A stretch of DNA of 64,000 bases from Nitrospira sp. (GTDB lineage Bacteria; Nitrospirota; Nitrospiria; Nitrospirales; Nitrospiraceae): assembly GCA_016788885.1 (NCBI GenBank), contig JAEURX010000036.1, positions 62,001 to 126,000 on the forward strand, in the 5' to 3' direction. A program made the translations under genes and the position numbers. Every line of letters begins with the position of its first letter. The stretch's first letter is position 1. This document shows positions 32,329 through 60,394 of the stretch, in pieces. The notes under the pieces are model-generated. The model saw only the letters and a list, made by a program, of their open reading frames with translations. It was not told the origin of the DNA and ran no database searches.

Positions 32329-32410
32329 TCGCCAACCAGCCTCTCGGAGATCGTTCCCGACCGGCCCCATACTAGGGAGGCCGGTCGGGAAGATCAACTC
32401 CCTTCGAGGC

Positions 32411-32614
32411 CTACTTCCCGATCATGACCTCGGTCGCTTTCACCGCCACGGTGACGGTGTCGTTCACCTTCAGGCCCATGCCCTTGACGGAACCTTCCGT
32501 GATGGCGGCCACAAAATCAAGATTGCCCACCTTCACCGTGATTTCGGCCATCGCAGTCCCCTCGGTGATACGGGTGATCGTGCCCTGAAATTGGTTACGT
32601 GCACTGAGTTTCAT
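32411..32614 (-). CDS. molybdate-binding Mop protein (molbindin), copy 1
   Basis: A 67-residue single-domain Mop protein: SARNQFQGTITRI, VKVGN..FVAAIT and VKATEVMIGK, the same fold as the C-terminus of ModC. Free Mop proteins store or buffer molybdate in the cytoplasm. AAGGAGG is just ahead of two consecutive ATGs; the second (32614) has the better spacing. It stands between the HTH-Mop regulator and the ModB gene. A paralogue is at 35089-35292, 80-90% identical by eye. Confidence 0.9.
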   Translation of the reverse strand: MKLSARNQFQGTITRITEGTAMAEITVKVGNLDFVAAITEGSVKGMGLKVNDTVTVAVKATEVMIGK

Positions 32615-32624
32615 CATGTCCTCC

Positions 32625-33023
32625 TTAGTGCTTCACCACCATGACCTCGGTCGCTTTGACGAGGGCGACGGCGGAGTCCCCGATCCGCAGCCCCAGTTCT
32701 TCAAGCGCATCCCGTGTGATCACGGCCGTGATGATGTGTGGTCCGATGTCGATATCGACTTGTGCCATAATGGCATCTCGTTTGATCGCCGTGACTCGCC
32801 CGATCAGCTTGTTGCGGCCGCTCACGTCTTCCGTGCCGGACTTTTTGGTACCAAGCCACTCGTCGAGTAACGCCCGTTTAAAGCGGTACCGTCCGCCGAT
32901 TTTCGGTGCCTGAATTTTTCCATCCCAGATGTACCGGTAAAACGTCGGGAGCGTGAGCCGCACATAACGGGCTGCTTCTCTGGCCGTGAACACGTCCCCT
33001 TTTCCTCGTGGCTGTTTAGGCAT
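32625..33023 (-). CDS. HTH-Mop fusion regulator, ModE analogue
   Basis: A 132-residue cytoplasmic regulator. The N-terminal excisionase/MerR-like helix-turn-helix (about 10-60, FTAREAARYVRLTLPTFYRY) precedes a Mop domain (about 65-132, GRNKLIGRVTAI...IITAVITRDAL). ModE also joins a DNA-binding domain to Mop domains, but its HTH is of another type, so this appears to be an analogue built from an excisionase-like HTH. It should sense cytoplasmic molybdate and control the transport genes. The ATG at 33023 follows GAAGGA by 10 bases and overlaps a short leader ORF. Direct targets are unknown. Confidence 0.85.
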   Translation of the reverse strand: MPKQPRGKGDVFTAREAARYVRLTLPTFYRYIWDGKIQAPKIGGRYRFKRALLDEWLGTKKSGTEDVSGRNKLIGRVTAIKRDAIMAQVDIDIGPHIITAVITRDALEELGLRIGDSAVALVKATEVMVVKH

Positions 33024-33081
33024 ACTGGGATGTCCTTCGTTCAGCCTGACCACCACTCGGAAGTCGTGATCGGCTGATCAT
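33016..33081 (-). CDS. 21-codon leader ORF with strong ribosome site
   Basis: On the minus strand AAAGGAGGTG stands 5 bases ahead of an ATG at 33081, opening a 21-codon frame whose TAA (33018-33016) lies just past the regulator's ATG. The regulator's own ribosome site is weaker, so the leader could couple translation of the HTH-Mop gene. The encoded peptide is rich in Arg and Ser and has no recognisable motif. Confidence 0.4.
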   Translation of the reverse strand: MISRSRLPSGGQAERRTSQYA

Positions 33082-33266: not shown

Positions 33267-34361
33267 TCACAGGTCCTGGCGAGAAACCAGGTGCACCGCA
33301 CCGGCCTTGATCACCGCAAGCACCGATTGACCGGGAATCAATTGCAGGTCTTCCACGGAAGAACGCGTTACCATGGCGACCAGCTGAAAACCACAATTCA
33401 GTGTCACTCGCGCCAACGCCCCCAACATGACAACAGCCGTCACCGTTCCGGCCAGCTGATTCCGCGCGCTGCTCACGGAGAGAGGACCGCGTTCCAAGGC
33501 GATGTCCTCCGCCCGGATACAGACGTACACATCAGGACCGCAGGCATCTCCCTCGATGGCATTCACCACAACACCGCTCACCTCCACACGGAACATCCCG
33601 GCAGCCGCCCACACCACCCGTCCCTTGACGACCGTTTCCACACCCACGACGAGTGCAACTTCGGCATTCCGGGGACGGCTGAACACCTCCAACGGCGGAC
33701 CGGTTTGCAGGACCTCGCCGCCGCTCACCACCGCCATCAGATCTCCGAGGGTCAACGCCTCGGCCCAGTCATGCGTGACGATGATGGATGGCAAGGCCAA
33801 CTGCTTGAGTAGACGGCGCAGTTCGTCGCGAAGATAGGTTCTGGTCGGCACATCCAGGGCAGACAACGGTTCGTCCAGCAACAGCAGGAGAGGGCGTGGG
33901 GCCACGGCTCGAGCCAGCGCCACACGTTGTTGCTGGCCGCCGGACAGGTGTTGTGGCTTCGCGTGTTCCAGCCCACGCAATTGAAAGAGATCCAGAACTT
34001 CGGTCACCCGTGCCTTGCGTTCGTGCGACGACAGATGAGCAAGTCCGTACTCCACATTCCCCGCCACCGTGTGTGTAGGAAACAGGGCATAGTCCTGAGA
34101 CATGTATCCGACATGCCGATCTTGAGGAGACACGCGAATACCCGATCCCGTATCCAGCCAGGTACGCGACACGAATCGAATCCGCCCCTCTTCCGGCCAC
34201 TCCAGACCGGCCACGGATCGAAGAATCGTGCTCTTGCCGGCACCGGAGGGTCCGAACAGAATCAAGACGGTCGAGGCTTCGACGGGATAGCGAAACCGCG
34301 CACGGATGGGCACGCGGCCGGAGTAGGTCTTGACGATGTCGAGCGCTAATTCTGCGGCCAT
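33267..34361 (-). CDS. modC: molybdate ABC transporter ATPase with Mop domain, set 2
   Basis: A 364-residue ABC ATPase closely similar to set 1: GPSGAGKST, LSGGQQQR, LLLLLDEP and THD, with a Mop domain at the C-terminus (SARNQLAGTVTAVVMLGALARV). Differences cluster in the helical domain and the Mop domain, where the anion or metal specificity could differ (molybdate versus tungstate; inferred). The ATG at 34361 overlaps the permease stop by 16 bases, the same overlap as in set 1. It ends the operon that starts with ModA at 36515. Confidence 0.93.
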   Translation of the reverse strand: MAAELALDIVKTYSGRVPIRARFRYPVEASTVLILFGPSGAGKSTILRSVAGLEWPEEGRIRFVSRTWLDTGSGIRVSPQDRHVGYMSQDYALFPTHTVAGNVEYGLAHLSSHERKARVTEVLDLFQLRGLEHAKPQHLSGGQQQRVALARAVAPRPLLLLLDEPLSALDVPTRTYLRDELRRLLKQLALPSIIVTHDWAEALTLGDLMAVVSGGEVLQTGPPLEVFSRPRNAEVALVVGVETVVKGRVVWAAAGMFRVEVSGVVVNAIEGDACGPDVYVCIRAEDIALERGPLSVSSARNQLAGTVTAVVMLGALARVTLNCGFQLVAMVTRSSVEDLQLIPGQSVLAVIKAGAVHLVSRQDL

Positions 34362-35020
34362 GCTGCCCACACATTTCGATTGACCGCATAGACCAGCAGC
34401 AACACGGCGTACGAGACGACAAACAGAAACAAGGCCGTCTCGGCGGCGCCGGCATAATTCAACGCCTGCACTTCGTCGTAGATGTCGATGGAGACCGTCC
34501 GTGTCGTGCCCTCCAGGTTGCCTCCCACCATCAACACCACCCCGAACTCCCCCATCGTGTGAGCGAAGCTGAGCACGACGCCGGTCACCAGACCCGCGGT
34601 GGACATGGGCAGAATCAACTTGAAGAAGGTTGTGAGTTTGGACACGCCGAGTGTCCAGGAGGCTTCAATGAGTCGTCGATCAACCTGCTCAAACGCCGCC
34701 GCAAAGGGTTGAACCGCGAACGGCAAACTGTACAAAACGGAGGCCAGCAGGAGACCTTCGAAGGTAAATGGAAGCGGGTGGCCGACGAGATCGGCATACA
34801 GGCGGCCGAACGGACTATGGGGACCAATCGCCGACAGGATATAAAACCCGAGCACGGTCGGTGGCAGCACCAGCGGGAGGGCTACCACCGACTCCACCAT
34901 GAACTTCCACCGCCACCGAGAAAAACTCACCCAGTAGGCGATGGGCAACCCGACCAGCAGCAGAATGAGCGCGGTGAGACCAGCCAATTTTACGGTCACC
35001 CAAATCGCAATCCAGTTCAC
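34346..35020 (-). CDS. modB: molybdate ABC transporter permease, set 2
   Basis: A 224-residue permease almost identical in layout to the set 1 permease: helices, EAA-type loop (VSKLTTFFKLILPMSTAGLV) and SFAHTMGEFGVVLMVGG. GTG 35020 is taken as the start, with GGAACGG upstream. Substitutions relative to set 1 are mostly conservative (LIL/LAL, VVL/AVL). It lies 68 bases after the Mop gene and overlaps the ATPase gene. Confidence 0.92.
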   Translation of the reverse strand: MNWIAIWVTVKLAGLTALILLLVGLPIAYWVSFSRWRWKFMVESVVALPLVLPPTVLGFYILSAIGPHSPFGRLYADLVGHPLPFTFEGLLLASVLYSLPFAVQPFAAAFEQVDRRLIEASWTLGVSKLTTFFKLILPMSTAGLVTGVVLSFAHTMGEFGVVLMVGGNLEGTTRTVSIDIYDEVQALNYAGAAETALFLFVVSYAVLLLVYAVNRNVWAAWPQN

Positions 35021-35088: not shown

Positions 35089-35292
35089 TTATTTTCCGAT
35101 CATGACCTCCGTGGCCTTTACAGCCACGATGACTGAATCATTGGTCTTCAACCCCATCTGCTTGACGGACCCCTCGGTGATGGCGGCCACAAATTCAAGG
35201 TTTCCGACCTTGACCGTCACCTCGGCCATCGCCTGACCTTCCGTGATCTGTGTCACTGTCCCCTGAAATTGATTTCTCGCGCTCAGTTTCAT
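35089..35292 (-). CDS. molybdate-binding Mop protein (molbindin), copy 2
   Basis: A 67-residue Mop domain protein with an excellent AAGGAG site 8 bases ahead of the ATG. It shares SARNQFQGTVTQI, VKVGN.EFVAAITEGSVK and VKATEVMIGK with copy 1. Changes such as GMGLKVND to QMGLKTND sit near the anion-binding face. It is placed between the lipoprotein and ModB genes, mirroring the position of copy 1 in set 1. Confidence 0.9.
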   Translation of the reverse strand: MKLSARNQFQGTVTQITEGQAMAEVTVKVGNLEFVAAITEGSVKQMGLKTNDSVIVAVKATEVMIGK

Positions 35293-35344: not shown

Positions 35345-35737
35345 TCATTTGGTACGTCCCTGCACCTTCCCCTCAGGTTCGTTCTTGAGATCGGCGCCGC
35401 CAGGCTTGCATTCGAATTGAATCCCCCAGCGCCTACCCCGTGATTCGTCTTCCGTGCCTTCGATGATACCCATCCCCGCGCTGGTATATCCTTTCACTTC
35501 TCCCTCGCGGAGCATACGCCACCCTTTCCCGCACTTGGCTTGAATCTCGTCCAGTGCGGGTTTTCGGTAAGGCGACCCCATCGGACCACCGCGATCTTCC
35601 TTGTAACTGTACGTCATGACCCCGCCGTGGTCCGATTCCTGGCTCATCATGACCGCTTCTGAGCAACCAGCGACAACGGTCAGACAGACCGCACAGACAA
35701 AGAGGGATCGGCGATCAACTCGGCAACGTGAATCCAT
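35345..35737 (-). CDS. small lipoprotein in the molybdate operon
   Basis: A 130-residue lipoprotein: signal with lipobox VVAGC at about 21-25, then a hydrophilic chain containing YRKPALDEIQAKCGKGW, G.GIIEGTEDESRGRRWG and a Lys/Gly-rich tail. Its start overlaps the ModA gene's end by 23 bases, so the protein is translated with ModA. It has no family I recognise. It may help deliver or hold the ligand at the membrane, by analogy with accessory lipoproteins in other transporters. GGAG is upstream of the ATG. Confidence 0.65.
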   Translation of the reverse strand: MDSRCRVDRRSLFVCAVCLTVVAGCSEAVMMSQESDHGGVMTYSYKEDRGGPMGSPYRKPALDEIQAKCGKGWRMLREGEVKGYTSAGMGIIEGTEDESRGRRWGIQFECKPGGADLKNEPEGKVQGRTK

Positions 35738-36515
35738 ACCGGATCATAATCTCCTGTCCGCGTTCGCCTTTGATGAATTCCAGAAATTGTTTCGCCACAT
35801 CCTGGTTCTTCGATTGCTTCATAATCACCGCGCCCTGCTCAAGCGGGGCATGGTGATCCGCTGGGATCTCCCAGTAGGTGCCGGCGCTTTTCATGGCAGG
35901 AGCCATAGCCAGCGACAGGGCAATGATGCCCACATCGCAGGCGCCGGATTCGATAAACTGGGCGGCCTGGGAAATATTCTCTCCGAGCACCAGCCGATCT
36001 TTCACATCGCCATAGACCTGCTCGTGCTCCATGGCTGCCACGGCCGCCCGGCCGTAGGGCGCATGTTTTGGATTGGCGATGGCAATCTTTTTGATCACCG
36101 GTTCGCGCAGCACTGTGAGTCCCTTGGTCACGTCAAGAGGAGAGTTCTTGGGCGCCCATACCACCACCCGCCCAACCGCATACCGATAGAGCGACCCCGG
36201 CACGGTCAAACCCGCCTCCTCTAATTTTCTGGGGTAGCCGATGTCGGCTGAAAAATAGAGATCAAACGGCGCTCCCTGCTGCAATTGCGCAAAGAAGTTG
36301 CCCGACGAACCCAGGGACAACTTCACCTTGTTTCCGCTTTGCTTCTCGTACTCCTCAATCACTTCCTTGATGGCGAAATTGAGATCAGAGGCGGCCGCAA
36401 TGGTCACCTCGCCGGCTTGGGCAACAGTCGGCGCCATCGGCAGCACGAGCACAAGCGCAATCGCGAGCATGCAGCTCATCGCCCACAAGGGTCGCATATA
36501 TTTCCAGATTGACAC
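35715..36515 (-). CDS. modA: molybdate ABC transporter substrate-binding protein
   Basis: A 266-residue periplasmic binding protein. The start is GTG 36515, with AAAGGAG 7 bases upstream and a signal peptide through TVAQAGE. The ModA core has VTIAAASDLNFAIKEV, the anion-binding SLGSSGNFFAQLQQGAPFDLYFSAD loop, and a C-terminal GACDVGIIALSL with PADHHAPLEQGAVI. ModA presents molybdate or tungstate to the ModB permease. It is the first gene of set 2, followed by the lipoprotein, Mop, ModB and ModC. It has no partner of its own in set 1, which may share it. Confidence 0.92.
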   Translation of the reverse strand: MSIWKYMRPLWAMSCMLAIALVLVLPMAPTVAQAGEVTIAAASDLNFAIKEVIEEYEKQSGNKVKLSLGSSGNFFAQLQQGAPFDLYFSADIGYPRKLEEAGLTVPGSLYRYAVGRVVVWAPKNSPLDVTKGLTVLREPVIKKIAIANPKHAPYGRAAVAAMEHEQVYGDVKDRLVLGENISQAAQFIESGACDVGIIALSLAMAPAMKSAGTYWEIPADHHAPLEQGAVIMKQSKNQDVAKQFLEFIKGERGQEIMIRYGFTLPS

Positions 36516-36577
36516 GGGTGAGCTCCTTTCATTCCAGCACATGTGACACATCGCATGGGAACGCGATACGCGGGCCC

Positions 36578-36934
36578 TTATCGTGCGCTTGCCAGAGATT
36601 GATGGTCAAGATACAACAAGCCGCACAACACCGGAGGACAATCCTTTCCCGCGGGCTTGATCCAGGCTTCATAACGGCCGATATGAATGTCAATGCTCAT
36701 GCCGGAGGCCCAGGACGCACCGTGATTATCCTCCTGCTCCACCAGCACTGAGACACGAGCAGTCCCGACGAGCAGCGAGAGCAAACTTCCGTCTAGATCC
36801 CCATCTACTTCTGCAATGTTGGCTTTCAACCAGACGCGGGCATCCTGGCAGGAGCAACGCACCTCATTCTCAGAATCCTCGTTCGGCACTTCGTTCAGAT
36901 ACAACGCACGATTAGGCCCGTCGTGACTCATCAT
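36578..36934 (-). CDS. hypothetical protein in the molybdate locus
   Basis: A 118-residue protein with an acidic N-terminal half, a core CQDARVWLKANIAEVDGDLD and LVGTARVSVLVEQEDN, and a Cys-containing C-terminus (KPAGKDCPPVLCGLLY). The ATG pair at 36934/36931 lacks an obvious ribosome site, so the start is uncertain. It lies between the porin and ModA genes in the same direction. I recognise no family. Confidence 0.5.
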   Translation of the reverse strand: MMSHDGPNRALYLNEVPNEDSENEVRCSCQDARVWLKANIAEVDGDLDGSLLSLLVGTARVSVLVEQEDNHGASWASGMSIDIHIGRYEAWIKPAGKDCPPVLCGLLYLDHQSLASAR

Positions 36935-37001
36935 GAGGAGATCTCGCGGTTGGCGAGAGCCCCGGCAGGACATCATGGCCAAGGCTCTCGCGTCATGCTC
37001 G

Positions 37002-38732
37002 TCAGAAGAAGATTTGATATTGGACCCGGATCGCATGTTCGATCAGGGTTCCCTTCGTCACATCGAGCGGCACGGTTCCTGATCCCGGAGGCAGCGGCGC
37101 GCTACGGCCGATGGCATACCCGCCGGTTTCAAACTGCGTATTGCTGTAGGTCAACATGATTTGATGGTCATAGGTTCCGTTCAAGAACCAATTCAATGAC
37201 GCATCGGTCTGTCTGATCAAGTCACCAGCTGAATTCGTATCCGGGTCCCAGTAGGAAAACCGTCCCGCCAGCTCCAAGGTCCGAGGAATCAAATAGTAAC
37301 CGGATTGCACATAAAATCCGGTGGCATTCCCGAAGTTGTTGGGTGCCGTGGCCGTACACGCCACGTTCATACACGGCAACCCTTTATCGTGCCGGTTGAC
37401 ATTTTTGTAATAGAATTCTCCCTGCAATGAGAAGCCCCGATACTTGAACACACCGTCGACCGCCCAGGTGGAATAATCGACAATCCCAAGACCTAATTGT
37501 CGTCCGTTGCCAAAGGCTGCCAGCTGACGCCGGATATTCAAATTCGCGAGATCCAGACCGACAAACGCGTTGTCGGAACTCGTATTGATACCAGGGTTAT
37601 AGGAATATCCACCGCCGATGGCCAATTGTGGCCGTTCGGAATACGCCAGGTCGCCTTCTCCATAGCCCGGCCTTCCCAAGATATTCCAATTCAAGCGAGC
37701 GACGTAGAGAAGACGGTCGACATCGAAACGTGTATTGGCATTCAGGTTGCGCTGGTTCACCGGACAGTTCGAGGGTGAAGGGAATGGATTGCCTCCGGTC
37801 TGTCCACCCGGACAGCCGATGGTCGCCTCTTCTGACGCAAACGATCCGAGTCGATTGAAACTCGGGCCGGCGCCGTTGAAGATTCCGAAATAGTAGTTGA
37901 TCGGAAACAACTCTTCGTCGTTCATGATCGTGATACCGATATCCCGCCGATCCAATCCGCTGGCGGTAAAGGCATCTTGAACTAACGATCGATCCGCAAA
38001 CTGCATCGACGCGGTCGAATTGATCTGCGACCGATTGAAATAGACTTTATATTGTCCCAACTGCACGTTCGCCCATTTAAAATGCGTGGACGTGAAATTC
38101 ATGTCCAACAGCGAAAGCGCTCCAGGAGTCTGCGCATTTTCGGCGGTCTCTGAGCGAAATTGAATGTAGTATTTAAAGTCCGGATCAAATAAGTGGCCCA
38201 TGAAGTAAAACCGCAAGCGGCGCACATTGAACGATGTGGCGTTATTCTCTGAACGATTGGCCCGATAGTCTCCGAATACGCCGAGCAACTCCGGGAAGTT
38301 TTTCGCTTCTCCAGGATCTCGCCACGCATCGTTTCTGATCCGCTCAGTGAACCGAAGTTGACTCCTGAATCGAATCTTCAGAAAAAACGCGTTGTCGTTA
38401 AACGACAGGTTGAACCCGCGGTCATACCAGCCTTTAAAACTCGGCGCCAACAACTGTGCGCGTTCCTCTGAATCCTGAACGACCTTGCTGTACTCATCCT
38501 GCGTAATCAGACCACCCTTCACCGACCGTTCGAGCAGCAGTCGCATGGCAGGGTCCATCCCCTCGACAAAGACGTACTTCCCTTCCTTCTCGATCAACTT
38601 GCCGGACTCAGCGGCGCCGGCAGCGGCCGAGAAGCCGATGACCAACCCCACCATAAGCATCACTGGGAGCAAGGCTCTCTTAGAGCCGGCTGCCGCGGAC
38701 CGAAGACATACAGATCTCCATACTGCATTCAT
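37002..38732 (-). CDS. phosphate/oxyanion-selective porin (OprO/OprP-like), copy 1
   Basis: A 576-residue outer-membrane beta-barrel of the OprO/OprP family: signal peptide (about 20-40, cut after AGAA), a short helical segment (GGLITQDEYSKVVQDSEERA), then repeating amphipathic strands rich in Tyr/Phe/Arg and a C-terminal VQYQIFF that ends in Phe, as outer-membrane proteins do. Such porins carry anions across the outer membrane. GAGGAG lies 8 bases ahead of the ATG at 38732. It follows a lipoprotein and ModA-like gene, so it may supply molybdate or a related oxyanion to the inner-membrane systems. A second copy is at 44631-46271. Confidence 0.88.
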   Translation of the reverse strand: MNAVWRSVCLRSAAAGSKRALLPVMLMVGLVIGFSAAAGAAESGKLIEKEGKYVFVEGMDPAMRLLLERSVKGGLITQDEYSKVVQDSEERAQLLAPSFKGWYDRGFNLSFNDNAFFLKIRFRSQLRFTERIRNDAWRDPGEAKNFPELLGVFGDYRANRSENNATSFNVRRLRFYFMGHLFDPDFKYYIQFRSETAENAQTPGALSLLDMNFTSTHFKWANVQLGQYKVYFNRSQINSTASMQFADRSLVQDAFTASGLDRRDIGITIMNDEELFPINYYFGIFNGAGPSFNRLGSFASEEATIGCPGGQTGGNPFPSPSNCPVNQRNLNANTRFDVDRLLYVARLNWNILGRPGYGEGDLAYSERPQLAIGGGYSYNPGINTSSDNAFVGLDLANLNIRRQLAAFGNGRQLGLGIVDYSTWAVDGVFKYRGFSLQGEFYYKNVNRHDKGLPCMNVACTATAPNNFGNATGFYVQSGYYLIPRTLELAGRFSYWDPDTNSAGDLIRQTDASLNWFLNGTYDHQIMLTYSNTQFETGGYAIGRSAPLPPGSGTVPLDVTKGTLIEHAIRVQYQIFF

Positions 38733-38815
38733 GAATGCATCTCCTCTTCGTACTCTACGAATCACTACCGAGTTATTAGATCTGCCAGACCATGGGGATC
38801 CTCACCCGCAGCCGT

Positions 38816-39493
38816 TTACCGTGGTGCCATGCCGCTGGATTGTGCAGATTTGAGAAATTGGCGAAACTCCACGCCCCTGACGCCCTTGTCGTCGGTCAAC
38901 CAGAAGCGGCCTGGTTCGAAATAGAGGATGTATTCCCCGGGGTTGGGGGGAGTGAGCGGATAGTTGTAATCGTAGTTGTCCGATTTTCTGATGGGAATCT
39001 GGTTATGGAAATAATCGACGTTGAGATACAGATAGGGATCACGAACGGCCACCCACCCGCCGACCACATTCCGGCTGTAGCGTGGATTGTTGCCGGGCCC
39101 GCGCACTTCGAAGTGCGCCCGCTCCGCCGGGCCCACGTGTTGAAGTGCCTCCGCAAGGTACGGCGCCAGAGCCTGAATCTCGTCTTCCCGGAACAACGGC
39201 TTCGGCGGAACCTCTTCCGCGAACCATCGCAAGGGCAAGCGTTGCTGCTCACGAATCGAGAATCCCCTAAGCACACTGGCCAAATCCGCGGCGGTGAGTT
39301 GAGCCGGATGCGTGTACGAGCGAGCCTCTACTTCGTGTTGCACCGTGACAACTACGCGCTCATCCTCATGCACCGTCTTCGTGGTGTAGGGCAACCGCGC
39401 GCACCCCGTCACCATGAGTCCTGCCGCCAGAACCAGAACGGACCCCAGCCGTCCCTGGCGGCGCCAACTAATTGCGATGTTCCCGTGCCTCAT
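38816..39493 (-). CDS. lipoprotein of the porin/ModA-like cassette, copy 1
   Basis: A 225-residue lipoprotein with lipobox MVTGC. Its core contains THPAQLTAADLASVLRGF, PLRWFAEEVPPKPLFREDEI and LAPYLAEALQHVGP, followed by a YLYLNVDYF strand and a C-terminal FEPGRFWLTDDKG segment. It is clearly related to the lipoprotein at 47132-47863. Both lie with a ModA-like gene and a porin gene, so the trio seems to be a functional cassette. AAGGAGG lies 4 bases ahead of the ATG. The family is unknown to me. Confidence 0.8.
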   Translation of the reverse strand: MRHGNIAISWRRQGRLGSVLVLAAGLMVTGCARLPYTTKTVHEDERVVVTVQHEVEARSYTHPAQLTAADLASVLRGFSIREQQRLPLRWFAEEVPPKPLFREDEIQALAPYLAEALQHVGPAERAHFEVRGPGNNPRYSRNVVGGWVAVRDPYLYLNVDYFHNQIPIRKSDNYDYNYPLTPPNPGEYILYFEPGRFWLTDDKGVRGVEFRQFLKSAQSSGMAPR

Positions 39494-39577
39494 CACTCCT
39501 CCTTGCAACATGTCTCGAAAAATCATGAGTAGATATAATAAGTAAATGTATACTTGCTCTCATGGCAAAAAAACTCA

Positions 39578-40417
39578 CTACCTTTTTCCGGCGGGAATGG
39601 TATACCCGGCTTGCCGCACGATGGCTTGACCATCGGGGCCCTGAATGTAGGAGAGGAACTCCTCACAGAGCGTCCGGTTCGGGCAGTATCGCTCCATTGC
39701 CATGGAATGCACCGTCGGTTGGTATCCCTTCTCGACCACTCCGGCGACCCGCAAACGCTGTTGCTGCCTGACCGCCTCGTGCCCGTAGATGATGCCCACA
39801 TCCGCCTGACCGCTTAAGACATGGTCAATGACCCCACGGGAATCCGTGGCCACATCCAGACGTCCCTTAAGTGATTCCTGAAGCTGCGAAGCCCGAAGCA
39901 CCTCGTCCGTCTGGGCTCCGAGCCGCGTTCGCGACCGGTCAGCCACAGCCACGCGCGCGCCCTCTCGGCTGATCGCGTCGAGCGACCCCGGCGCCTCCAC
40001 CAACGATTCCGGTACCACGAGCACCAGCTGATCGGCGGCATAGGGCCGCCTTCCGTCCGGCAACACGTAATACTTCCCTTCAAGACGCGTGATCAGCTCA
40101 TCCCCTCCGGGCGCGACGACATTAATGGGACCGCTTCCGACGAAGTAGCGCCCCACCATGCTGTTCTCCATGCCGGCGATGGTTTGCCGGAGACTCAATC
40201 CCGAATCAAAGAACAACCGCACCTTGACCCCGGCATGACTACGTTCAAAACCCTCCCCCAACCGTTCCAGAACTTCTCTCAAACTCGGGGAAGCAGCAAT
40301 GACGAATGTTTCATCGGCGGACGCGGGAACAGCGTGCACGCCACCCCCGCACATGAGGAACCCAACCAGGGCGAGCACCGTCCTGACAACCGTCCGAGCA
40401 TACGCATAGTAACTCAT
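39578..40417 (-). CDS. ModA-like substrate-binding protein, cassette copy 1
   Basis: A 279-residue exported binding protein: signal sequence (about 8-33) cut after PASADE, then ETFVIAASPSLREVLERLG, FFDSGLSLRQTIA, ADVGIIYGHEAV and SMAMERYCPNRTLCEEFLSYI. The fold matches ModA/molybdate-type binding proteins, but the anion loop differs (SGLSLRQ instead of SSGNFF), so another oxyanion is possible. GAGGA sits 5 bases ahead of the ATG. It is followed by the cassette lipoprotein and porin. No permease of its own is adjacent. Confidence 0.82.
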   Translation of the reverse strand: MSYYAYARTVVRTVLALVGFLMCGGGVHAVPASADETFVIAASPSLREVLERLGEGFERSHAGVKVRLFFDSGLSLRQTIAGMENSMVGRYFVGSGPINVVAPGGDELITRLEGKYYVLPDGRRPYAADQLVLVVPESLVEAPGSLDAISREGARVAVADRSRTRLGAQTDEVLRASQLQESLKGRLDVATDSRGVIDHVLSGQADVGIIYGHEAVRQQQRLRVAGVVEKGYQPTVHSMAMERYCPNRTLCEEFLSYIQGPDGQAIVRQAGYTIPAGKR

Positions 40418-40481
40418 GAATATCCTCGCCGTATAAAATGATGCCTGTTCACATGGATGCATGATGTCCCAACACCCTCGC

Positions 40482-41675
40482 TTACCCGACCCGCAAGCTC
40501 CGCACCTTGCCGGTCTCCGTCATGTCATAGCCGCCCAACGCTTCGACTTCGGTTCTGAACTGACGGCTGGCAATCGCGTCGAGCAGATGTGAAAGCCCGG
40601 GGTGACTGGAGAGATATCGCTTCGGCAGGACCAGATCGTAACGGGCCTGTTGCAAGGGAACGAAATCGAGGCCGAAGATCTGCGCCGCGGATCGCACACC
40701 GATGCCGGCATCGCCTTGCCCGTCTGCAATATGCCGAGCCACCTCGAAATGCGAGCTGACCCCCATGTTGTAGCCCTTCACCGCATTGCCATCGATTCCC
40801 AATGCCTGCAGACGCTGGTCCAGCAACATCCTGGCTGCAGCGCCCTCTTCTCGATTGACCAGCGTCACATTGGCCTTAGCCAGATCCTCTATTCCCCGGA
40901 TCCGTTTGGGGTTTCCCCCACGCACAATGAGTCCCTCTTCCCACGCCGCAAAGGTCACGACAATATAATCGTCGCCCTGCAGGTGCCGCCGGAGATAGGG
41001 CAGATTCGACTCTCCTGTTTTCGCATCCAAAATATGCAGCCCCGCCATATGGACTTCTTTTCGCTTGAGCGCCTCCAGCGCCGCCGCACTCCCCATCGAC
41101 CACCCCACGACCGTCGAGGTGTCCTTGTGGCGATGGAGATATTCGCTGGCCAGATTAATGGCCGGATCACAACCGGCCACCGCGATTTCCCGCTCGACGA
41201 TCTGGCGCTCGCGCAGCAACCGGACGAGCACACGTCGATCGGATTTGGTCGAACGCGACCCCGCCCCGGCCTTGCCGATGATGAGACCATCCGCAGGCAC
41301 GGTGTAATTGAGAATTTCCCCCAGCGCTGCAACGGGACGAACGACAAAGCGATCTTCGATCTTGGCAACCTTGACTCTGGTGCGGGGCTGAACCTCAGAA
41401 ACGGCCAACCCTGGCCAGACCCAATCTCCTTCGATCAACTCACCGGTGGTCTTGAGACTGAAGAGATCTTCGACGTGACAGCCCAACACACTGGCCAGCC
41501 GCAGCGCCACCGCAGTGGTCGGGAGATATTGATCCGCCTCGATGGCGCAGACAGCTTGGCGGGTAATCAGGGCTCCGTCGGCGAGTTGGCCCTGAGAGAG
41601 GCCTTTTGCCATACGCAACGCGCGAAGCGAGTTCACCACATTGGAAGCCGGTTCTGCTTTGCTTTTTTCACTCAT
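40482..41675 (-). CDS. one-component regulator: XRE helix-turn-helix plus periplasmic-binding-like domain
   Basis: A 397-residue cytoplasmic regulator. An XRE domain (about 15-75, RMAKGLSQGQLADGALITRQ) is followed by a linker (about 80-140) and a PBP_like domain (about 150-385) that resembles molybdate/oxyanion-binding proteins and contains VGWSMGSAAALEAL, ILDAKTGESNLPYL and QGDAGIGVRSAAQIFG. The arrangement is that of a ligand-responsive repressor or activator. ATG 41675 follows GAGGCGC. It opens the block of ModA-like, lipoprotein, porin and mod genes on the minus strand, so it probably controls them. Confidence 0.85.
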   Translation of the reverse strand: MSEKSKAEPASNVVNSLRALRMAKGLSQGQLADGALITRQAVCAIEADQYLPTTAVALRLASVLGCHVEDLFSLKTTGELIEGDWVWPGLAVSEVQPRTRVKVAKIEDRFVVRPVAALGEILNYTVPADGLIIGKAGAGSRSTKSDRRVLVRLLRERQIVEREIAVAGCDPAINLASEYLHRHKDTSTVVGWSMGSAAALEALKRKEVHMAGLHILDAKTGESNLPYLRRHLQGDDYIVVTFAAWEEGLIVRGGNPKRIRGIEDLAKANVTLVNREEGAAARMLLDQRLQALGIDGNAVKGYNMGVSSHFEVARHIADGQGDAGIGVRSAAQIFGLDFVPLQQARYDLVLPKRYLSSHPGLSHLLDAIASRQFRTEVEALGGYDMTETGKVRSLRVG

Positions 41676-41687
41676 AGCGCCTCGGGG

Positions 41688-41715
41688 AATATCATGATAG
41701 ATTAAATTGTGTCAA
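41688..41715 (-). promoter_or_regulatory. candidate promoter and operator of the XRE-PBP gene
   Basis: On the minus strand TTGACA (41715-41710) and GATATT (41693-41688) are 16 bases apart. The -10 element overlaps a perfect 10-base palindrome TATCATGATA (41690-41699), a likely autoregulatory site. The surroundings are AT-rich. Confidence 0.5.
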
Positions 41716-41866
41716 CTATTATGATTATATAATTATCCACAATACTTGACAGGCAAGACCTACGGAACCGACCCGATACCCAGCAGGTATTTCTCTGGCT
41801 TCCCGCTGCAATCCGGCGCATCCACGTGATCCTTCCATGGAAAACCGGCAGGAAAAGCGACGGCAT

Positions 41867-42262
41867 TTATGGCGCGGCGAGTTTGCCCGCCGGTGCTGTG
41901 GCTTGCCAACCGGTAATTGTGCCGTCAAGCTCCTGGTAATATCTCACGGTCACTTCCCCCAATCGCACCTCCTGTTCGGAGATATGAAACTGAACGGCGG
42001 CTCGCTTACGAAGCACCGTGTGGTAAGAGGAGGCAGGCGGAGCGGATGCTAGCGCCAGGGGCAGCTCTTGCCCTCCTTCTCCGTCGCGTGACGGACAATA
42101 GGCTCCCCGACAACCCTCGACCTCCCCGAGCACAATGACTCCCGCTTCGTGCAAATCGGGTGTCGACGCGGTTCCCGGATACGTCATAGGTTTCGAGAGG
42201 CCACAACCGCCTACGGTTATCAGGGCCGCAACAGCAACCGATCCTAGCACCTTCGCATTCAT
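41867..42262 (-). CDS. small lipoprotein, function unknown
   Basis: A 131-residue lipoprotein with lipobox TVGGC (about 16-20), a Cys-containing segment (EVEGCRGAYCPSRDGE), and a C-terminal half with AAVQFHISEQEVRLGEVTVRYYQELDG. AAAGGAAG lies upstream of the ATG. It stands alone, divergent from the XRE-PBP regulator's flank and facing a long gap. No family is recognised. Confidence 0.6.
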   Translation of the reverse strand: MNAKVLGSVAVAALITVGGCGLSKPMTYPGTASTPDLHEAGVIVLGEVEGCRGAYCPSRDGEGGQELPLALASAPPASSYHTVLRKRAAVQFHISEQEVRLGEVTVRYYQELDGTITGWQATAPAGKLAAP

Positions 42263-42839
42263 TCGGACGCTTCCTTTCTAAGGTGTACGATAGATCCAAT
42301 GAGCAATGATCGCATCATGTGCGCGCGCTGTAGAGACACCTCGAGCGTTGCGCCACAAGCGGGCCGATTGATCATGACGTATTGAGCGCGCATGCAGTCG
42401 GTTGGTCATCTATCCTGTTCCTCACTGCACTGTCAACGACTGCACCACCGCGCCGAGCCGGCCCGGAAAGAGCGGCGTTCTTCCCAAGACGAGAGGCGCG
42501 GACAGTCATGAGATAGGGGGAACGGCGGCGGCGCGGGGAGTTCGACGGGCGCCGATCATGAACCACGATTGGCAAAGCCCGAGGCGTAGCGGTGAATCTG
42601 CTTCTACCGCAGTCTGGTGGACGGAGAGGGCACCACATGGAATCACGAGGCCCCGATCCGTCCGCCAATTCTTCTCCTCTCACCATTGCGCCCACAGCGC
42701 CGCTCCTGCCTCGCCTGGCTGAACGCGTCGATCATACCGACATGACACCGATCGCTTACTCACCGGAACACGACTTTCCGCACCCCTGAAACCGGTAGGC
42801 GCACCTCGCCAAAATCCGACATACCTTTAAAGCTTCGCT
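42263..42839. other. gap with no supported gene
   Basis: About 580 bases between a lipoprotein start and the monooxygenase pseudogene. Conflicting open frames of 60-107 codons lie on both strands, but none has a ribosome site and a recognisable product. Given the decayed genes around it, eroded sequence is likely. Confidence 0.45.
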
Positions 42840-42842
42840 CGA

Positions 42843-43421
42843 TCACTGGACCCCATGCTGAATGAGTCGATGCCCCTCACGCGCCGCCCATCCGGCGGTC
42901 TCTTCATTGTAGGTGCCGATATACACGGGGGATGGGGCTGTTGAACCGGTTTGGGTTGCACATCGAACGATCCGCCGCTCACTCGAATTTCTCCGGGTGC
43001 CCAGCATTACAACATGGTAGCGAGGTCTCGCTGAAACTCCGCGCGCCCGGCATCGGAATCGATCTGGAACGCGCCTTCGAGTAGTCCCGATTGCCTCCTC
43101 GCGACACGCCGAAATTGATCCGCCCCCATTCATCACATCCAGCGTGGCGAGTTCTTCCGCGAGCCGGACAGGGTGATGAAGGGGGAGCAACAGCACGGAA
43201 AATCCAATGCGAATGCGCTGCGTATGCGCCGCAAGTTGGGCCGCTGCGATGAGAGGCGAGAAACAGAACCGGCCACTACTGTCATGGGGACGCTGAAAAT
43301 GTTCTTCGTTGAACCAGAGTGACTCGAACCCCGCGGTTTCAGCCATCTGCGCGAACACCGGCCATTGCGTCGGCAGAAGCGATTCAAATTCGGCCGCGCA
43401 TCCGGACAGTCTAAACCTCAT
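42843..43421 (-). pseudogene. luciferase-like (LLM) monooxygenase pseudogene
   Basis: From ATG 43421 (with AAAGGGG upstream) the first 100 residues are a good LLM flavin-dependent oxidoreductase N-terminus: PVFAQMAETAGFESLWFNEEHF, RIRIGFSVLLLPLHHPVRLAEE and LATLDVMNGG. The expected GGRINFGVSRGGNRDYSKA then continues in a second frame and AFQIDSDAGRAEFQRDL in a third, so at least two frameshifts occurred between 43140 and 43030. The fragment VYIGTYNEETAGWAAREGHRL at the end is again in the first frame. It stops well short of the usual 330-350 residues. Confidence 0.8.
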
Positions 43422-43593
43422 GCTATGTCCCCTTTGCCGTTGCGGTTCAGTGCAGCGGCATAAACCTACGCGGCCCTGAGCCGGCACACCTTGACCACTG
43501 CGGGAGCAGATACTAATGCGCATCAACTATTCGGGTGAGGCTTAAGACCCACACGAGTGGAGGCTGCTGAATGACGGCGCGCCTGGCATCCGC

Positions 43594-44211
43594 CTACAAC
43601 ACGGGCTCGGCGTCGATGAAGAACTCCCGCACGTCCGAGGCACGACCTCTGGCCAGACGGGTGAGTCGAGGAAGATTGATCAAGGTGATCAGACGGCCTT
43701 GGGTCAACAGAAGTTTCTCCGACTGGAAGGCGCTCAGCAGGCGGGCCAGCGTCTCGGGTGTGATTCCGGTCATTTCGGCGATTTCTTCCCGTTTGAGGCT
43801 CATGCCTATTTGAATGCCGTCCTCCCCGCGCGAGCCGAATCGCCTGCCCAACTCCAATAGAGTGGCCGCCAACCGCTCCCGGGCATTCTTGAAGGTGAAG
43901 GAGTCGAGCTGCGCGAGATTGGAGCGGACTTCGCTACTGAGCAACTCGATGAGTTTGAGGGCCAATGTGCTGTCGCGCCGCACCAAGTCCAGGTAGGCGT
44001 TTCTCTCGATCAAGCAAATCTTGCACGATTCAAGCGTCTCGCACGTCGTTTGATGGATGGAGTTTTGCGCAAAAGCATGTTTTTCGATGATCTCTCCTGC
44101 TTCAAGGATTTGTACGATCAGTCGTTGTCCTCGATAGGAGGAGCGGGTCAATTTCACCTTGCCGGCACACAGCATATACAAACCGATACTGAGATGGCCT
44201 TCGTAAAACAC
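43594..44211 (-). CDS. Crp/Fnr-family transcriptional regulator, N-terminus disrupted
   Basis: A 205-codon frame with most of a cyclic-nucleotide-binding-like domain (EGHLSIGLYMLCAGKVKLTR) and a Crp-type winged helix at about 135-190 (SLKREEIAEMTGITPETLARL). Its first in-frame start (GTG 44211) lies inside the sensor domain, and the frame stays open upstream as LDGHQLEAFHRIRIPLSYKP with no ATG, GTG or TTG. The missing N-terminus seems to be in another frame at 44243-44398. Crp/Fnr proteins here usually respond to redox or ligands. It stands next to the second porin cassette, which it may have controlled. Confidence 0.75.
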   Translation of the reverse strand: MFYEGHLSIGLYMLCAGKVKLTRSSYRGQRLIVQILEAGEIIEKHAFAQNSIHQTTCETLESCKICLIERNAYLDLVRRDSTLALKLIELLSSEVRSNLAQLDSFTFKNARERLAATLLELGRRFGSRGEDGIQIGMSLKREEIAEMTGITPETLARLLSAFQSEKLLLTQGRLITLINLPRLTRLARGRASDVREFFIDAEPVL

Positions 44212-44242
44212 GGCCTGGTTGGGTTTATAGGAGAGTGGAATT

Positions 44243-44398
44243 CTAATGCGATGGAACGCTTCTAGTTGATGCCCATCGAGGTCGAAAATGCCCCCGTGAC
44301 CGGTTTGTTTCTGCGCTGTACAGCAGGATGAAATGCGGTCGACTGGTCAGTTCATGATACGTCTCCATCTGCTCAGAAATAAGTGGTACTTCTCTCAT
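44243..44398 (-). pseudogene. N-terminal fragment of the Crp/Fnr gene in a shifted frame
   Basis: An ATG at 44398 opens a frame (MREVPLISEQMETYHELTSR...) that could be the first 35-40 residues of the adjacent Crp/Fnr protein. The frames differ by one base; the switch is needed near the C5 run 44291-44295 or the A4 run 44285-44288. This may be a real frameshift mutation, a sequencing error or programmed shifting. Confidence 0.5.
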
Positions 44399-44415
44399 TC
44401 CGCACGGATGAACAT

Positions 44416-44446
44416 CATAATACATTTACAATATATAAGTATTATG
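44416..44446. promoter_or_regulatory. inverted repeat beside the Crp/Fnr start, possible operator
   Basis: CATAATAC (44416-44423) and GTATTATG (44439-44446) are exact inverted copies separated by 15 bases in an AT-rich stretch. They overlap the likely start region of the Crp/Fnr gene and lie about 50 bases upstream of the porin promoter, so they could bind a regulator controlling both directions. Confidence 0.5.
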
Positions 44447-44496
44447 GAAACAAGATGGCCGTATGGACGCATGGAATTTCGGATCCCATATTATTG

Positions 44497-44524
44497 TTGA
44501 CAAACTTATTAAAGATAATATAAT
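44497..44524 (+). promoter_or_regulatory. consensus sigma-70 promoter for porin cassette 2
   Basis: TTGACA (44497-44502) and TATAAT (44519-44524) are perfect consensus boxes with a 16-base spacer, about 107 bases upstream of the porin ATG. This suggests strong basal expression, possibly held down by a repressor. Confidence 0.7.
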
Positions 44525-44630
44525 TTATTTCTCATCGGATTACAGATAATTAAATTATTGCCATCGCCAATGCGCAACAGCTCAACAATTCATCGGTAGC
44601 GCCTACTGTTAGATAATGAGGAGAATTCTT

Positions 44631-46271
44631 ATGCAGCGACAAGCACTTGGGATTGCCGGCCTCCTAGCCGGCTTACTGGTAGGCCTGTCCTCCATGCCGG
44701 CCCAGGCAGTCGAGGAAGGCCAGTTCATCAGGAAGGACGGAAAATGGGAATACTACTCCGGAGAAGATCCGGGACTAAAGTATCTGTATCTCAAAGGCAT
44801 CATCACCCAGGAGGAATACGACAAAGGCATCAGGGTGCTGGAGAAGCGCGAACAGGTTTCGAAACCGAATTACACGATCGACGTCAATAACGGGTTAAAC
44901 TTTCGGGTGGGCGATAAGTTCTTCCTGAAACTGAGACTTCTGACCCAGGTTCGTTACACACACAGCGCATATAACGAAGCGTGGGGAACCGTCGGCGACT
45001 CGCGGAATCCGGAAGTTCTTGGAGGACAGGTCGAGTATCGTGCGATCCGGAAGCAAAGCGACTCCAACCAATTCAGCGTGCCACGTGCCAGACTTCAGTT
45101 TCTCGGCTATGCCTTCGACCCGGACTTTCGCTACAACATCTCCTGGGCCTTTGACCAGACAACGTGGAATCAGGAAGGGGGCAGCGGCAGAGCCGGCCTG
45201 CTCGACGCCTATGTCTCCTCCTGGCATATTCCCTGGTTGACGATCCAGGCAGGCCAGCAACGCGTCTGGTTCAACCGTGCAACCATCAGTTCGATGGCAA
45301 CCTCTACCTTTGCCGACAACCTGATCGTCCAGAACGCGTTTGCCGCCAACCAACAAAACGCACGAGACATCGGTCTCAGCATCTCGAGCGATGAAGACCA
45401 GTACAAATTCAACTATGCGGTCGGGATTTGGGGAGGCGTCGGAGCCAATCTGGCGAGGGAAGGCACATCGGTCAGTCAAAACGTGCTGCCACAAACGGGT
45501 ACACCCGGGGCGCCTAACGCCACCACGACCAGAACCTACAACTACGACACGCGGTTCATGACCGGCGAGATGATGTACACCGTGCGATTGCTATACAAAA
45601 TCGCGGGGAACCCCGGCTATGGACAGGGAGACATTCTCAGTTCTCGCACCCTCCAGTCCGCCATCGCCTTCGGCTATGCCTACAACCCGGCGCAAAATTA
45701 CTTAAGTTCTATCCGCTCAGACATTGTCGATCGTGCTTATCGCCAAGCGATCACCAAGGCGTATAACGGCAGACTCCTGGCCGGCGGCATCTATGACTTC
45801 CAGACCTATGAAGTCGACTTTATTGCCAAGTACCAAGGCTGGTCGCTGCAGGCGGAAGGCTACTATCGGCATCAGCGCGTGCGAAATGCCAATAGCGGGA
45901 CCAGCCCGTTCGACCTGAACACGATTCCCCAGGCACAATTCCTCGGCACGCCGGTCAATCTCGGGCAAGCCTACGGCTGGTACGTACAGGTGGGGAAATA
46001 CATCATCCCGCGTAAACTCGAATTGGCGGTGCGATATGGGTTCATGGATCCGTCCACGCAGCAGGTGAACGATCTGGTCAAAGAATTCGGCGCCGCCATC
46101 AACTACAGCTTCGACGGCACGTACAACAACCGGCTCGTCATCGACTACTCGAACATCACCCTGGGTAGCGGCGGCCGAGCACCGGACCGGTTTCCGTTTG
46201 AGACTCAACCGGGATTCGGACGCGATCTCGTCGAAAACCGGATCAATGTGCAATACCAGTTCTACTTCTAG
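44631..46271 (+). CDS. phosphate/oxyanion-selective porin (OprO/OprP-like), copy 2
   Basis: A 546-residue outer-membrane porin related to the one at 37002-38732: signal peptide (about 1-27, cut after AQAV), an N-terminal helical segment (GIITQEEYDKGIRVLEKREQ), a barrel with Tyr/Phe/Arg-rich strands and a terminal VQYQFYF. ATG 44631 is chosen, with GAGGAG 7 bases upstream; an ATG at 44616 lies inside that ribosome site. It starts the operon porin, ModA-like protein, lipoprotein. Transport of an oxyanion is inferred from the neighbours. Confidence 0.88.
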   Translation: MQRQALGIAGLLAGLLVGLSSMPAQAVEEGQFIRKDGKWEYYSGEDPGLKYLYLKGIITQEEYDKGIRVLEKREQVSKPNYTIDVNNGLNFRVGDKFFLKLRLLTQVRYTHSAYNEAWGTVGDSRNPEVLGGQVEYRAIRKQSDSNQFSVPRARLQFLGYAFDPDFRYNISWAFDQTTWNQEGGSGRAGLLDAYVSSWHIPWLTIQAGQQRVWFNRATISSMATSTFADNLIVQNAFAANQQNARDIGLSISSDEDQYKFNYAVGIWGGVGANLAREGTSVSQNVLPQTGTPGAPNATTTRTYNYDTRFMTGEMMYTVRLLYKIAGNPGYGQGDILSSRTLQSAIAFGYAYNPAQNYLSSIRSDIVDRAYRQAITKAYNGRLLAGGIYDFQTYEVDFIAKYQGWSLQAEGYYRHQRVRNANSGTSPFDLNTIPQAQFLGTPVNLGQAYGWYVQVGKYIIPRKLELAVRYGFMDPSTQQVNDLVKEFGAAINYSFDGTYNNRLVIDYSNITLGSGGRAPDRFPFETQPGFGRDLVENRINVQYQFYF

Positions 46272-46310
46272 ATTCATGACGTCGATCATCGCACGAACGT
46301 GGAGGATAGC

Positions 46311-47135
46311 ATGAGCAGAACATTTCAGATGAAAGCCATTGTGGCTGCCGTAAGTCTACTGATCGGCCTGAGTTGGAACGTCCAGCCGACACAGGCACAA
46401 GCGGACACCATTACCATCGCCGCCGCTAACAGCCTGAAGGATGCCCTTCGCAAAGTGCTGCCGCTGTTCGAAGCGGAACACCGCAGCACCACTGTGCGCG
46501 TGATTTACGGTCCATCCCAAACACTCCGCAGCCAGATCGAACAGGGCGCCCCGGTCGACATCTTTCTTCCGTCGCTCTTTGAGGAAATCGACCAATTGGA
46601 GGCCAAAGGGTTAATCATTCAAGGGACCAAACGCGCTTTCGCGGCGACTTCGCTGGTCCTGATTACCGGGACGACCCTGCCCGCCCCCATCAGTTCGATT
46701 CAAGATCTGCAAACCACCCCGATTCGCCGCATTGCCGTCGGCGACCCCAAGACCTCTTCCGTCGGAAAAGTCGCCGCGCAATTTTTGAAATTCAGCAAAC
46801 TGGAACCCAAGCTGAAATCACAATACATCCTGGGCGAACACTCGCGAGCCGTGCTCGACCTGGTTGCCAAGGGTGAGGCTGAAATCGGCGTGGTCTACCG
46901 TACCGATGCGATCTCGAATTCGGGCGTCCGTATCCTCGACACTGCGCCGGTCGGCTCTCACACACCGGTGCGCTACGGCGTCGCCGCCGCATGGACGGCG
47001 CAAAACATTTCTGCAGCCGGCGATTTCATTGAATTTTTACTCAGTCCCACGATTCAAACCATGTTGCAGGAGTTCGGGTTCGATCGCGTCTCCCCCGAAG
47101 TCGGCTTCGCTCAACGAGAAGAGGTGAAACCATGA
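46311..47135 (+). CDS. ModA-like substrate-binding protein, cassette copy 2
   Basis: A 274-residue exported binding protein: signal peptide (about 8-28, cut after TQAQA), then DTITIAAANSLKDALRKVLP, VIYGPSQTLRSQIEQGAPVD and KGEAEIGVVYRTDAISNSGV. It is a ModA-type protein and the loop SQTLRSQIEQG matches the anion site layout better than cassette copy 1. GGAGG is 5 bases ahead of the ATG. It follows the porin by 39 bases and overlaps the lipoprotein gene by 4 bases (ATGA). It has no adjacent permease, so it probably feeds one of the ModBC sets. Confidence 0.87.
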   Translation: MSRTFQMKAIVAAVSLLIGLSWNVQPTQAQADTITIAAANSLKDALRKVLPLFEAEHRSTTVRVIYGPSQTLRSQIEQGAPVDIFLPSLFEEIDQLEAKGLIIQGTKRAFAATSLVLITGTTLPAPISSIQDLQTTPIRRIAVGDPKTSSVGKVAAQFLKFSKLEPKLKSQYILGEHSRAVLDLVAKGEAEIGVVYRTDAISNSGVRILDTAPVGSHTPVRYGVAAAWTAQNISAAGDFIEFLLSPTIQTMLQEFGFDRVSPEVGFAQREEVKP

Positions 47136-47863
47136 ACGCCATCCGAACCCCACAGCGAATCGCGATCCGTCGCGCCAGCCTCATCCTCGCCTTCATCGGC
47201 GTGATCGTCGCGGCCGGTTGCGCGGCACACCCCCAGACACCACCCAAGACGGTCTATCAGTCGGGATTGAACCACGTACGAATCGAAAAGGACCCCGCGT
47301 CAACCACGAACACTCACCCGGCCTCGTTGACCGCAACGGAAGTCGGTACGTTGTTACGAGGCGTACGTGTCTGGGAGCGACGGAACCTCCTGCATCGCCT
47401 CTTCGTCGGACAGGCTGACAAAACCAGGGCCTTCCGCGACGGTGAAATTGCCATGCTGGCGCCGGCCCTGGCGAAAGCCTTGGCCCAGGCATCACCTTCC
47501 GATCGGGTCTACTTCCATCTCAGCCATGCCACCGAACATGGCGAAGAGGAGACGACCACGGGATGGTTGTCCATCCAGGATGCGACGTTGCACCTCGCCT
47601 TGCGCGAAGCCCACGACCGGCACGGGCCAGGACCCGATATCAGCAAGTATGACCGGCAAATGCCGAATGTCCCGGAACGGTCTCCGGCGTTCGACGCCAC
47701 ATTCGAGCCGGAAGAATACCTGGTGAAGGTCCGGTCAGGCGGAGGACTGTTCGCACCGGATCAAGAAGAAGAACTTCTCATTCGGTACAGAGACGCGCTG
47801 TCGGCCATGCCTGCGCAACCTGGCTTGGAGCGAGACAACAAACCCGTCCCGGAACGGCACTGA
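47132..47863 (+). CDS. lipoprotein of the porin/ModA-like cassette, copy 2
   Basis: A 243-residue lipoprotein with lipobox VAAGC, paralogous to 38816-39493: it shares THPASLTATEVGTLLRGVRV, the LFVGQADKTRAFRDGEI stretch and LAPALAKALAQASP.DRVYF. Its ATG is part of an ATGA overlap with the ModA-like gene, so translation is coupled. The C-terminus differs (FEPEEYLVKVRSGGG). The recurrence with a porin and binding protein twice in this window suggests an accessory role in outer-membrane anion uptake. Confidence 0.82.
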   Translation: MNAIRTPQRIAIRRASLILAFIGVIVAAGCAAHPQTPPKTVYQSGLNHVRIEKDPASTTNTHPASLTATEVGTLLRGVRVWERRNLLHRLFVGQADKTRAFRDGEIAMLAPALAKALAQASPSDRVYFHLSHATEHGEEETTTGWLSIQDATLHLALREAHDRHGPGPDISKYDRQMPNVPERSPAFDATFEPEEYLVKVRSGGGLFAPDQEEELLIRYRDALSAMPAQPGLERDNKPVPERH

Positions 47864-49816: not shown

Positions 49817-49820
49817 CACC

Positions 49821-58930: not shown

Positions 58931-59188
58931 GATGCACTACCGGAGCGGTGAATTCAGCAGAGCCTATTCTGAAACCAAAGCCTCAAATCGCAGCAGCGAA
59001 GAGGCAGTTCGGTCACGATAGTGAACGCACTAAGACGATGAAACCTTTCCGCTAACAAGTCCGACACTGTGCTCGGGCTTGTCGATTTTGGCGGATGCGT
59101 GAGAGCGGCACCCGACGCCCTCATGGATGCGGAAAATAAATAGAGGACGAGCAGGGGTTATTCATTCTTGCAAGCGCGAGGAGGCAAA

Positions 59189-60367: not shown

Positions 60368-60394
60368 GAAGTCTAATCGTGGAGCAATACAGAC

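Follow-up and report, generated by a model that had tools for sequence, protein, structure and literature searches.

The window, by which we mean the whole stretch of 64,000 nucleotides that was analysed, carries two cassettes, each composed of a porin gene, a gene for a ModA-like binding protein and a lipoprotein gene. They lie on opposite strands, at 37002-40462 on the minus strand (cassette 1) and at 44616-47863 on the plus strand (cassette 2), and the open reading frames and coordinates agree with those of the original prediction. As it had also stated, the gene order differs: cassette 1 reads ModA-like protein, lipoprotein, porin, and cassette 2 reads porin, ModA-like protein, lipoprotein. 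The features of the two cassettes are the following.

37002..38765, minus strand: PORIN1, porin of cassette 1, Porin_O_P family (Pfam PF07396, 52.3 bits, cut-off 20.9)
38816..39526, minus strand: LIPO1, lipoprotein of cassette 1, unknown family (lipobox VTGC; 28 % to LIPO2)
39578..40462, minus strand: ModA1x, divergent ModA-like protein of cassette 1 (TIGR01256, 70.6 bits, cut-off 62.5)
44497..44524, plus strand: promoter-like site of cassette 2, sigma-70 type, TTGACA-16-TATAAT (12/12 consensus positions)
44616..46271, plus strand: PORIN2, predicted porin of cassette 2 (homology to PORIN1)
46299..47135, plus strand: ModA2x, ModA-like protein of cassette 2 (TIGR01256, 150.9 bits, cut-off 62.5)
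47132..47863, plus strand: LIPO2, lipoprotein of cassette 2 (lipobox AAGC; related to LIPO1)

All three pairs of proteins are related between the cassettes. The porins matched each other at 37 % over 554 columns (E 7e-112), the ModA-like proteins at 26 % (E 7e-24) and the lipoproteins, in which a lipobox is present, at 28 % (E 3e-15). The window lipoproteins matched no Pfam or NCBIfam model, and they had rightly been described as related and of unknown family. The porin subfamily has only two copies in the genome, both in the window. PORIN2 had no significant match of its own to Porin_O_P or any other Pfam porin model and is predicted to be a porin through its homology to PORIN1, for which the only matching NCBIfam model was ExtI, far under the cut-off. 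The structure prediction of the porin was poor (pLDDT 45) and the porin profile gave no sequence match to any solved chain.

Upstream of PORIN2, the -35 region ATTGTTGACAA(T/A) is conserved in relatives. A palindrome found there was considered as a regulator site (operator) and rejected; it overlaps the conserved -35 box and is therefore regarded as a promoter element. Downstream of cassette 2 we identified a histidine kinase gene followed by a gene for a sigma-54 response regulator. No sulfate or sulfonate transporter genes adjoin cassette 2 in the window, and no remnant of Sbp, Sbp2 or SsuA was detected between the cassette and the histidine kinase. The CysTW permease genes and a CysA-like ATPase of the same genome are located on another contig, on which no recognised lipoprotein or related porin was present within the 20 kb examined.

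Molybdate operon and ModA-type proteins

Regarding cassette 1, the neighbouring genes on the minus strand form a continuous run, in the order XRE/PBP_like regulator, ModA1x, LIPO1, PORIN1, small ORF, true ModA, small lipoprotein, Mop, ModB and ModC. A second set of molybdate-related genes lies on the same strand. Outside the cassette itself, these features are:

40482..41675, minus strand: XREPBP, regulator with an XRE HTH and a PBP_like domain (PF12727, 205 bits; PF01381, 39.8 bits)
36578..37036, minus strand: small ORF between PORIN1 and modA, partly conserved (a similar ORF in the related loci L044, L051 and L055)
35715..36551, minus strand: true ModA, Azotobacter type (TIGR01256, 210.5 bits, cut-off 62.5)
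35345..35737, minus strand: small conserved lipoprotein of the molybdate operon (about 50-75 % identity in relatives)
35089..35292, minus strand: Mop, molybdate-binding TOBE domain (PF03459, 61.5 bits)
34346..35020, minus strand: ModB permease (TIGR02141, 225.8 bits, cut-off 182.6)
33267..34370, minus strand: ModC-like ATPase with a TOBE domain (PF00005 and PF03459)
30575..33056, minus strand: second set, HTH_17-TOBE regulator, Mop, ModB and ModC (gene calls; HTH_17 and TOBE domains)

From the regulator to the first ModC the gaps do not exceed 69 bp and several genes overlap. The ModC-like ATPase scored 233 bits with TIGR02142, below the cut-off of 285, and contains ABC_tran and TOBE domains; the ModB of the second set is also over the curated cut-off. 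XREPBP also resembles the C-terminal portion of a molybdopterin biosynthesis model from NCBIfam (NF011068, 206 bits, under the cut-off), and its position next to molybdate operons is conserved in relatives. The original prediction overlooked the third, true ModA, which lies with ModB and ModC immediately behind cassette 1, and its statement that the unit has no permease of its own fails here: modA, the small lipoprotein gene, mop, modB and modC follow in the same direction, none of the gaps being longer than 69 bp. With these genes behind it, cassette 1 forms the front part of a molybdate ABC operon that has its own permease, and molybdate transport is predicted from the sequence.

The ModA model had four matches in the genome, of which three lie in the window. 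The closest solved relatives of the true ModA are the molybdate-binding proteins 7t4z, 9wgd and 1atg. Compared with E. coli ModA, this protein carries Y in place of A125 and A in place of Y170, which is the arrangement of Azotobacter ModA. In E. coli ModA, S12, S39 and Y170 provide ligand side chains. All three are kept in ModA2x and in nearly all of its orthologues, and every solved relative of ModA2x at E 0.01 or better is a molybdate-binding protein. Having kept these residues, ModA2x seems capable of binding a tetrahedral oxyanion. ModA1x of the window keeps S12 and Y170 and has G at the S39 position; among its orthologues S39 is mostly replaced by G, and the Y170 position is F in 17/24 sequences. 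With these changes at ligand positions, ModA1x looks altered.

Conservation and linkage in relatives

A contig search with a PORIN2-only alignment gave named matches that include Candidatus Nitrospira defluvii. We surveyed the surroundings of PORIN2 in 47 distinct loci, the window included. A ModA-like gene came next after PORIN2 in 46/46 loci, a lipoprotein gene was at most two genes away in 43/46, a divergent XREPBP gene at most three genes away in 36/39, and ModA was found upstream of PORIN2 in 36/39, all of these being linkage counts biased upward, as the loci of relatives were mostly retrieved by porin or lipoprotein. The anticipated recurrence outside the window was thus found, with the cassettes conserved across the genus and the family, and because of this recurrence the pairing is not a matter of chance.

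The comparison of ModB with the porin is free of this bias, as it joins two separate searches. A related porin was located within 5 kb upstream on the same strand for 49 of the 57 ModB genes (54 genomes of the order Nitrospirales). The eight ModB genes lacking such a porin include one at a contig start (G070) and one with a different porin next to modA (G282). A second family of the order has a porin ahead of modABC and lacks the lipoprotein there; the one porin of this family that was read with Pfam is of the Alginate_exp type. In one genus, a porin-modABC operon is divergent from porin-Sbp-CysTWA or porin-SsuABC, with the porin directly ahead. Three relatives possess a third LIPO1-porin pair, which stands beside a two-partner-secretion adhesin and has no modABC. 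An XREPBP gene is present near this adhesin-linked pair in two of the three.

For the region downstream of cassette 2, we considered 44 loci with at least four genes. Sulfate ABC transporter genes were present in 14 of them, sulfonate-type ABC genes in 10 and a lone sulfate-binding protein in 7, so that one of the three followed cassette 2 in 31/44 loci; in the other 13 a kinase gene came directly or after one gene. The identities of Sbp, CysT, CysW and the SsuA-family protein were confirmed by curated models in representative loci. For cassette 2, no permease is adjacent in the window, but relatives often have CysTWA or SsuBC-type genes next. A unit for outer-membrane and periplasmic oxyanion capture that works without its own permease would agree with cassette 2 of this genome and of 12 other loci in which no permease is adjacent. 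Nevertheless, we consider it very improbable: ModABC follows cassette 1, where the idea is already refuted, in most relatives cassette 2 leads on to a transporter or a sulfate-binding protein, and CysTW is encoded elsewhere in the genome.

Both cassettes might serve molybdate or tungstate, in which case cassette 2 would be a second, high-affinity molybdate entry sharing ModBC, and the proximity of sulfate genes would reflect competition between look-alike anions. ModA2x is over the TIGR01256 cut-off, its solved relatives are molybdate-binding and its S12, S39 and Y170 persist in nearly all orthologues, while ModBC is close by and XREPBP is divergent from PORIN2 in 36/39 loci. However, the genes that follow cassette 2 in the 31/44 loci are for sulfate or sulfonate uptake and not for molybdate, and in the genus mentioned above a porin alone stands ahead of Sbp-CysTWA or SsuABC. 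We regard a molybdate role of cassette 2 as a serious rival, possible if somewhat doubtful.

The lipoprotein family

The lipoprotein family has seven copies in the genome and occurs in 109/295 genomes of the phylum, nearly all of them from the same class. A lipobox-like motif was recognised in 143/146 family members, and a few of 84 members gave scattered Pfam matches, mostly of SHOCT or coiled-coil types; the core of the family was matched by no model of Pfam or NCBIfam. The structure model of LIPO1 was confident, with a mean pLDDT of 86. Comparison with the PDB produced no clear match (Foldseek best E 0.38; best Z 3.6), which does not show that the fold is new.

Five of the seven paralogues have a porin-like barrel gene close by, one each at the molybdate, sulfur and urea-type ABC loci and at two phosphate loci (Pit and PstS); the porin-like genes of the urea and Pit contexts have no Pfam match and were assigned as barrels from reading the sequence. 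The remaining two have no porin neighbour, one being near TatC/RND genes and the other near MiaB. The proposed co-occurrence of the lipoprotein with porin and ModA-like genes extends beyond the window for the LIPO1 and LIPO2 types. The lipoprotein is not restricted to ModA-like genes, as its other paralogues accompany different porins and transporters or have neither beside them. In the phylogenetic tree, LIPO1 orthologues form one clade (SH-aLRT 99) and so do LIPO2 orthologues (SH-aLRT 100). Each of the groups LIPO1, LIPO2, urea and Pit can be separated from the rest of the tree at a single branch, which does not hold for the PstS group.

The lipoprotein is probably a partner of the porin and is met again with further nutrient porins. 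It may instead be a general envelope factor, acting for example in assembly or stability of outer-membrane barrels and unrelated to the anion. This would explain why it accompanies unrelated barrel types and substrates, urea included, and why two of the paralogues lack any porin or transporter in their vicinity, and no anion-binding domain was recognised in it. On the other hand, most operon types have their own lipoprotein clade, which is more like a matched partner. We consider a general envelope role quite conceivable, if short of probable. More tentatively, and with considerable doubt, we suggest that the lipoproteins are a new family of porin partners that bring each porin, specific for its substrate, into line with the binding protein that serves it in the periplasm, which would give Nitrospira one matched chain each for molybdate, phosphate, urea and anions of sulfur. 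The family supplies a concrete candidate for a porin partner. If the suggestion is true, matched chains of porin, lipoprotein, binding protein and transporter would amount to a general strategy for guiding scarce nutrients across the envelope, from the outer membrane through to the inner one.

Proposed oxyanion uptake at the locus and known systems

The gene content, gene order and conservation of the cassettes and their association with molybdate and sulfur transporter genes are direct observations. They are best explained by two divergent operons for oxyanion uptake, each encoding its outer-membrane stage together with periplasmic capture, an explanation that we consider likely. The cassettes look like dedicated doors for scarce nutrient anions and not like a permease-less system. 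Of the original interpretation, the recurring working unit with outer-membrane entry and periplasmic oxyanion capture is retained, and the absence of a permease is dropped.

The scheme that we infer concerns which substrates are taken up, how they are handed over and what the lipoprotein does. In cassette 1, PORIN1 would admit molybdate, which ModA1x, the true ModA or both would hold until ModBC pumps it inward. Mop is probably a cytoplasmic molybdate-binding protein, and the XRE/PBP_like protein probably a molybdate-sensing regulator. In cassette 2, PORIN2 would admit a sulfur oxyanion for a CysTWA (sulfate) or SsuABC-like (sulfonate-type) transporter, the types whose genes follow the cassette in relatives. 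The lipoprotein may sit at the inner face of the outer membrane, where it would aid either the function of the porin or the hand-over to the binding protein. Several observations count against such a scheme. The ligand side chains of ModA2x would fit molybdate better than sulfate, ModA1x is changed at one or two ligand positions, some lipoprotein paralogues have no porin and one LIPO1-porin pair is linked to an adhesin.

The crossing of the outer membrane by molybdate and sulfate is usually left to unspecific porins. A phrase search of the literature, with most subscription journals outside its coverage, did not turn up any paper that names a porin for molybdate or sulfate. Paper searches on Nitrospira with molybdate and porin, and on TunR, gave no result either. 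The nitrite oxidoreductase of Nitrospira is a molybdenum enzyme, and a dedicated entry of molybdate through the outer membrane would therefore bear on nitrification.

With known ModABC and Mop systems, the operon of cassette 1 shares ModA and ModB proteins that are over the curated models, as well as a ModC-like ATPase with a TOBE domain and Mop in the same run. It differs from modABC of E. coli by the additional porin, second ModA-like protein and lipoprotein, none of which is found beside the E. coli genes. The phosphate-selective porin OprP works with phosphate uptake in a chain of porin, binding protein and ABC transporter. PORIN1 belongs to the Pfam family of OprP and OprO (Porin_O_P) and likewise adjoins an oxyanion ABC uptake operon; unlike OprP and OprO, the porins of the window are linked to molybdate and sulfur genes and not to phosphate genes.

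For the ExtI porin of Geobacter, associated with selenite and tellurite, a mutant phenotype implicates the porin in oxyanion passage, which suggests that a porin annotated as Porin_O_P can matter for another oxyanion (PMC5877670). ExtI is encoded in a cytochrome cluster and not with an ABC transporter as here (PMC5877670). A porin for short-chain amides and urea is suggested for Nitrospira in passages of PMC7078480 and PMC6311188. It would likewise be specific for a nutrient, and in the loci examined here a porin-like gene by urea-type ABC genes has a lipoprotein paralogue beside it; the porin differs in its substrate, and the passages on it in these two papers do not mention a lipoprotein partner (PMC7078480, PMC6311188). 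Many relatives have genes for the sulfate ABC transporter CysPTWA or the sulfonate ABC transporter SsuABC after cassette 2; in the genome of the window these are not adjacent to it.

Region between the cassettes and the promoter-like site of cassette 2

The fragment lying between cassettes 1 and 2 and the gene that adjoins it are:

42843-43526, luciferase-like monooxygenase fragment
43594-44211, CRP-type gene

A longer copy of the monooxygenase fragment was found in the compared locus L054 (4287-5354), and the divergent promoter region looks to have been split by insertion of the fragment. At 44497-44524 we identified a perfect promoter-like site, TTGACA-16-TATAAT, the -35 region of which is kept 5′ of the cassette 2 porin gene, PORIN2, in many relatives. 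The histidine kinase and sigma-54 response regulator genes at 48230-51179 adjoin cassette 2 in many relatives too, and may regulate it.

Other loci in the window

Directly downstream of the first molybdate transporter set lies:

30575-33056, second modB-mop-modC set with HTH_17-TOBE regulator

Among the relatives read, L053 and L055 contain this second set and most others lack it.

Genes for a TPR-S protein, a patatin-like phospholipase and a TIR protein (ThsB-like according to PADLOC) occupy 56909-61483, a candidate defence island, and are missing from the corresponding place in the relative L056. The 2137-aa protein encoded at 13023-19436, which combines DUF4347 with cadherin-like repeats, is likely a secreted surface protein.

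Lipoprotein-porin pairs elsewhere

Porin-like genes adjoin paralogues of the cassette lipoproteins in loci L009, L010 and L011, in the contexts of a urea-type ABC transporter, Pit with a Rieske/molybdopterin enzyme, and PstS. A third pair of LIPO1 (the cassette 1 lipoprotein) and porin, without modABC, adjoins a two-partner-secretion adhesin of ~1400 aa in L110, L111 and L112.
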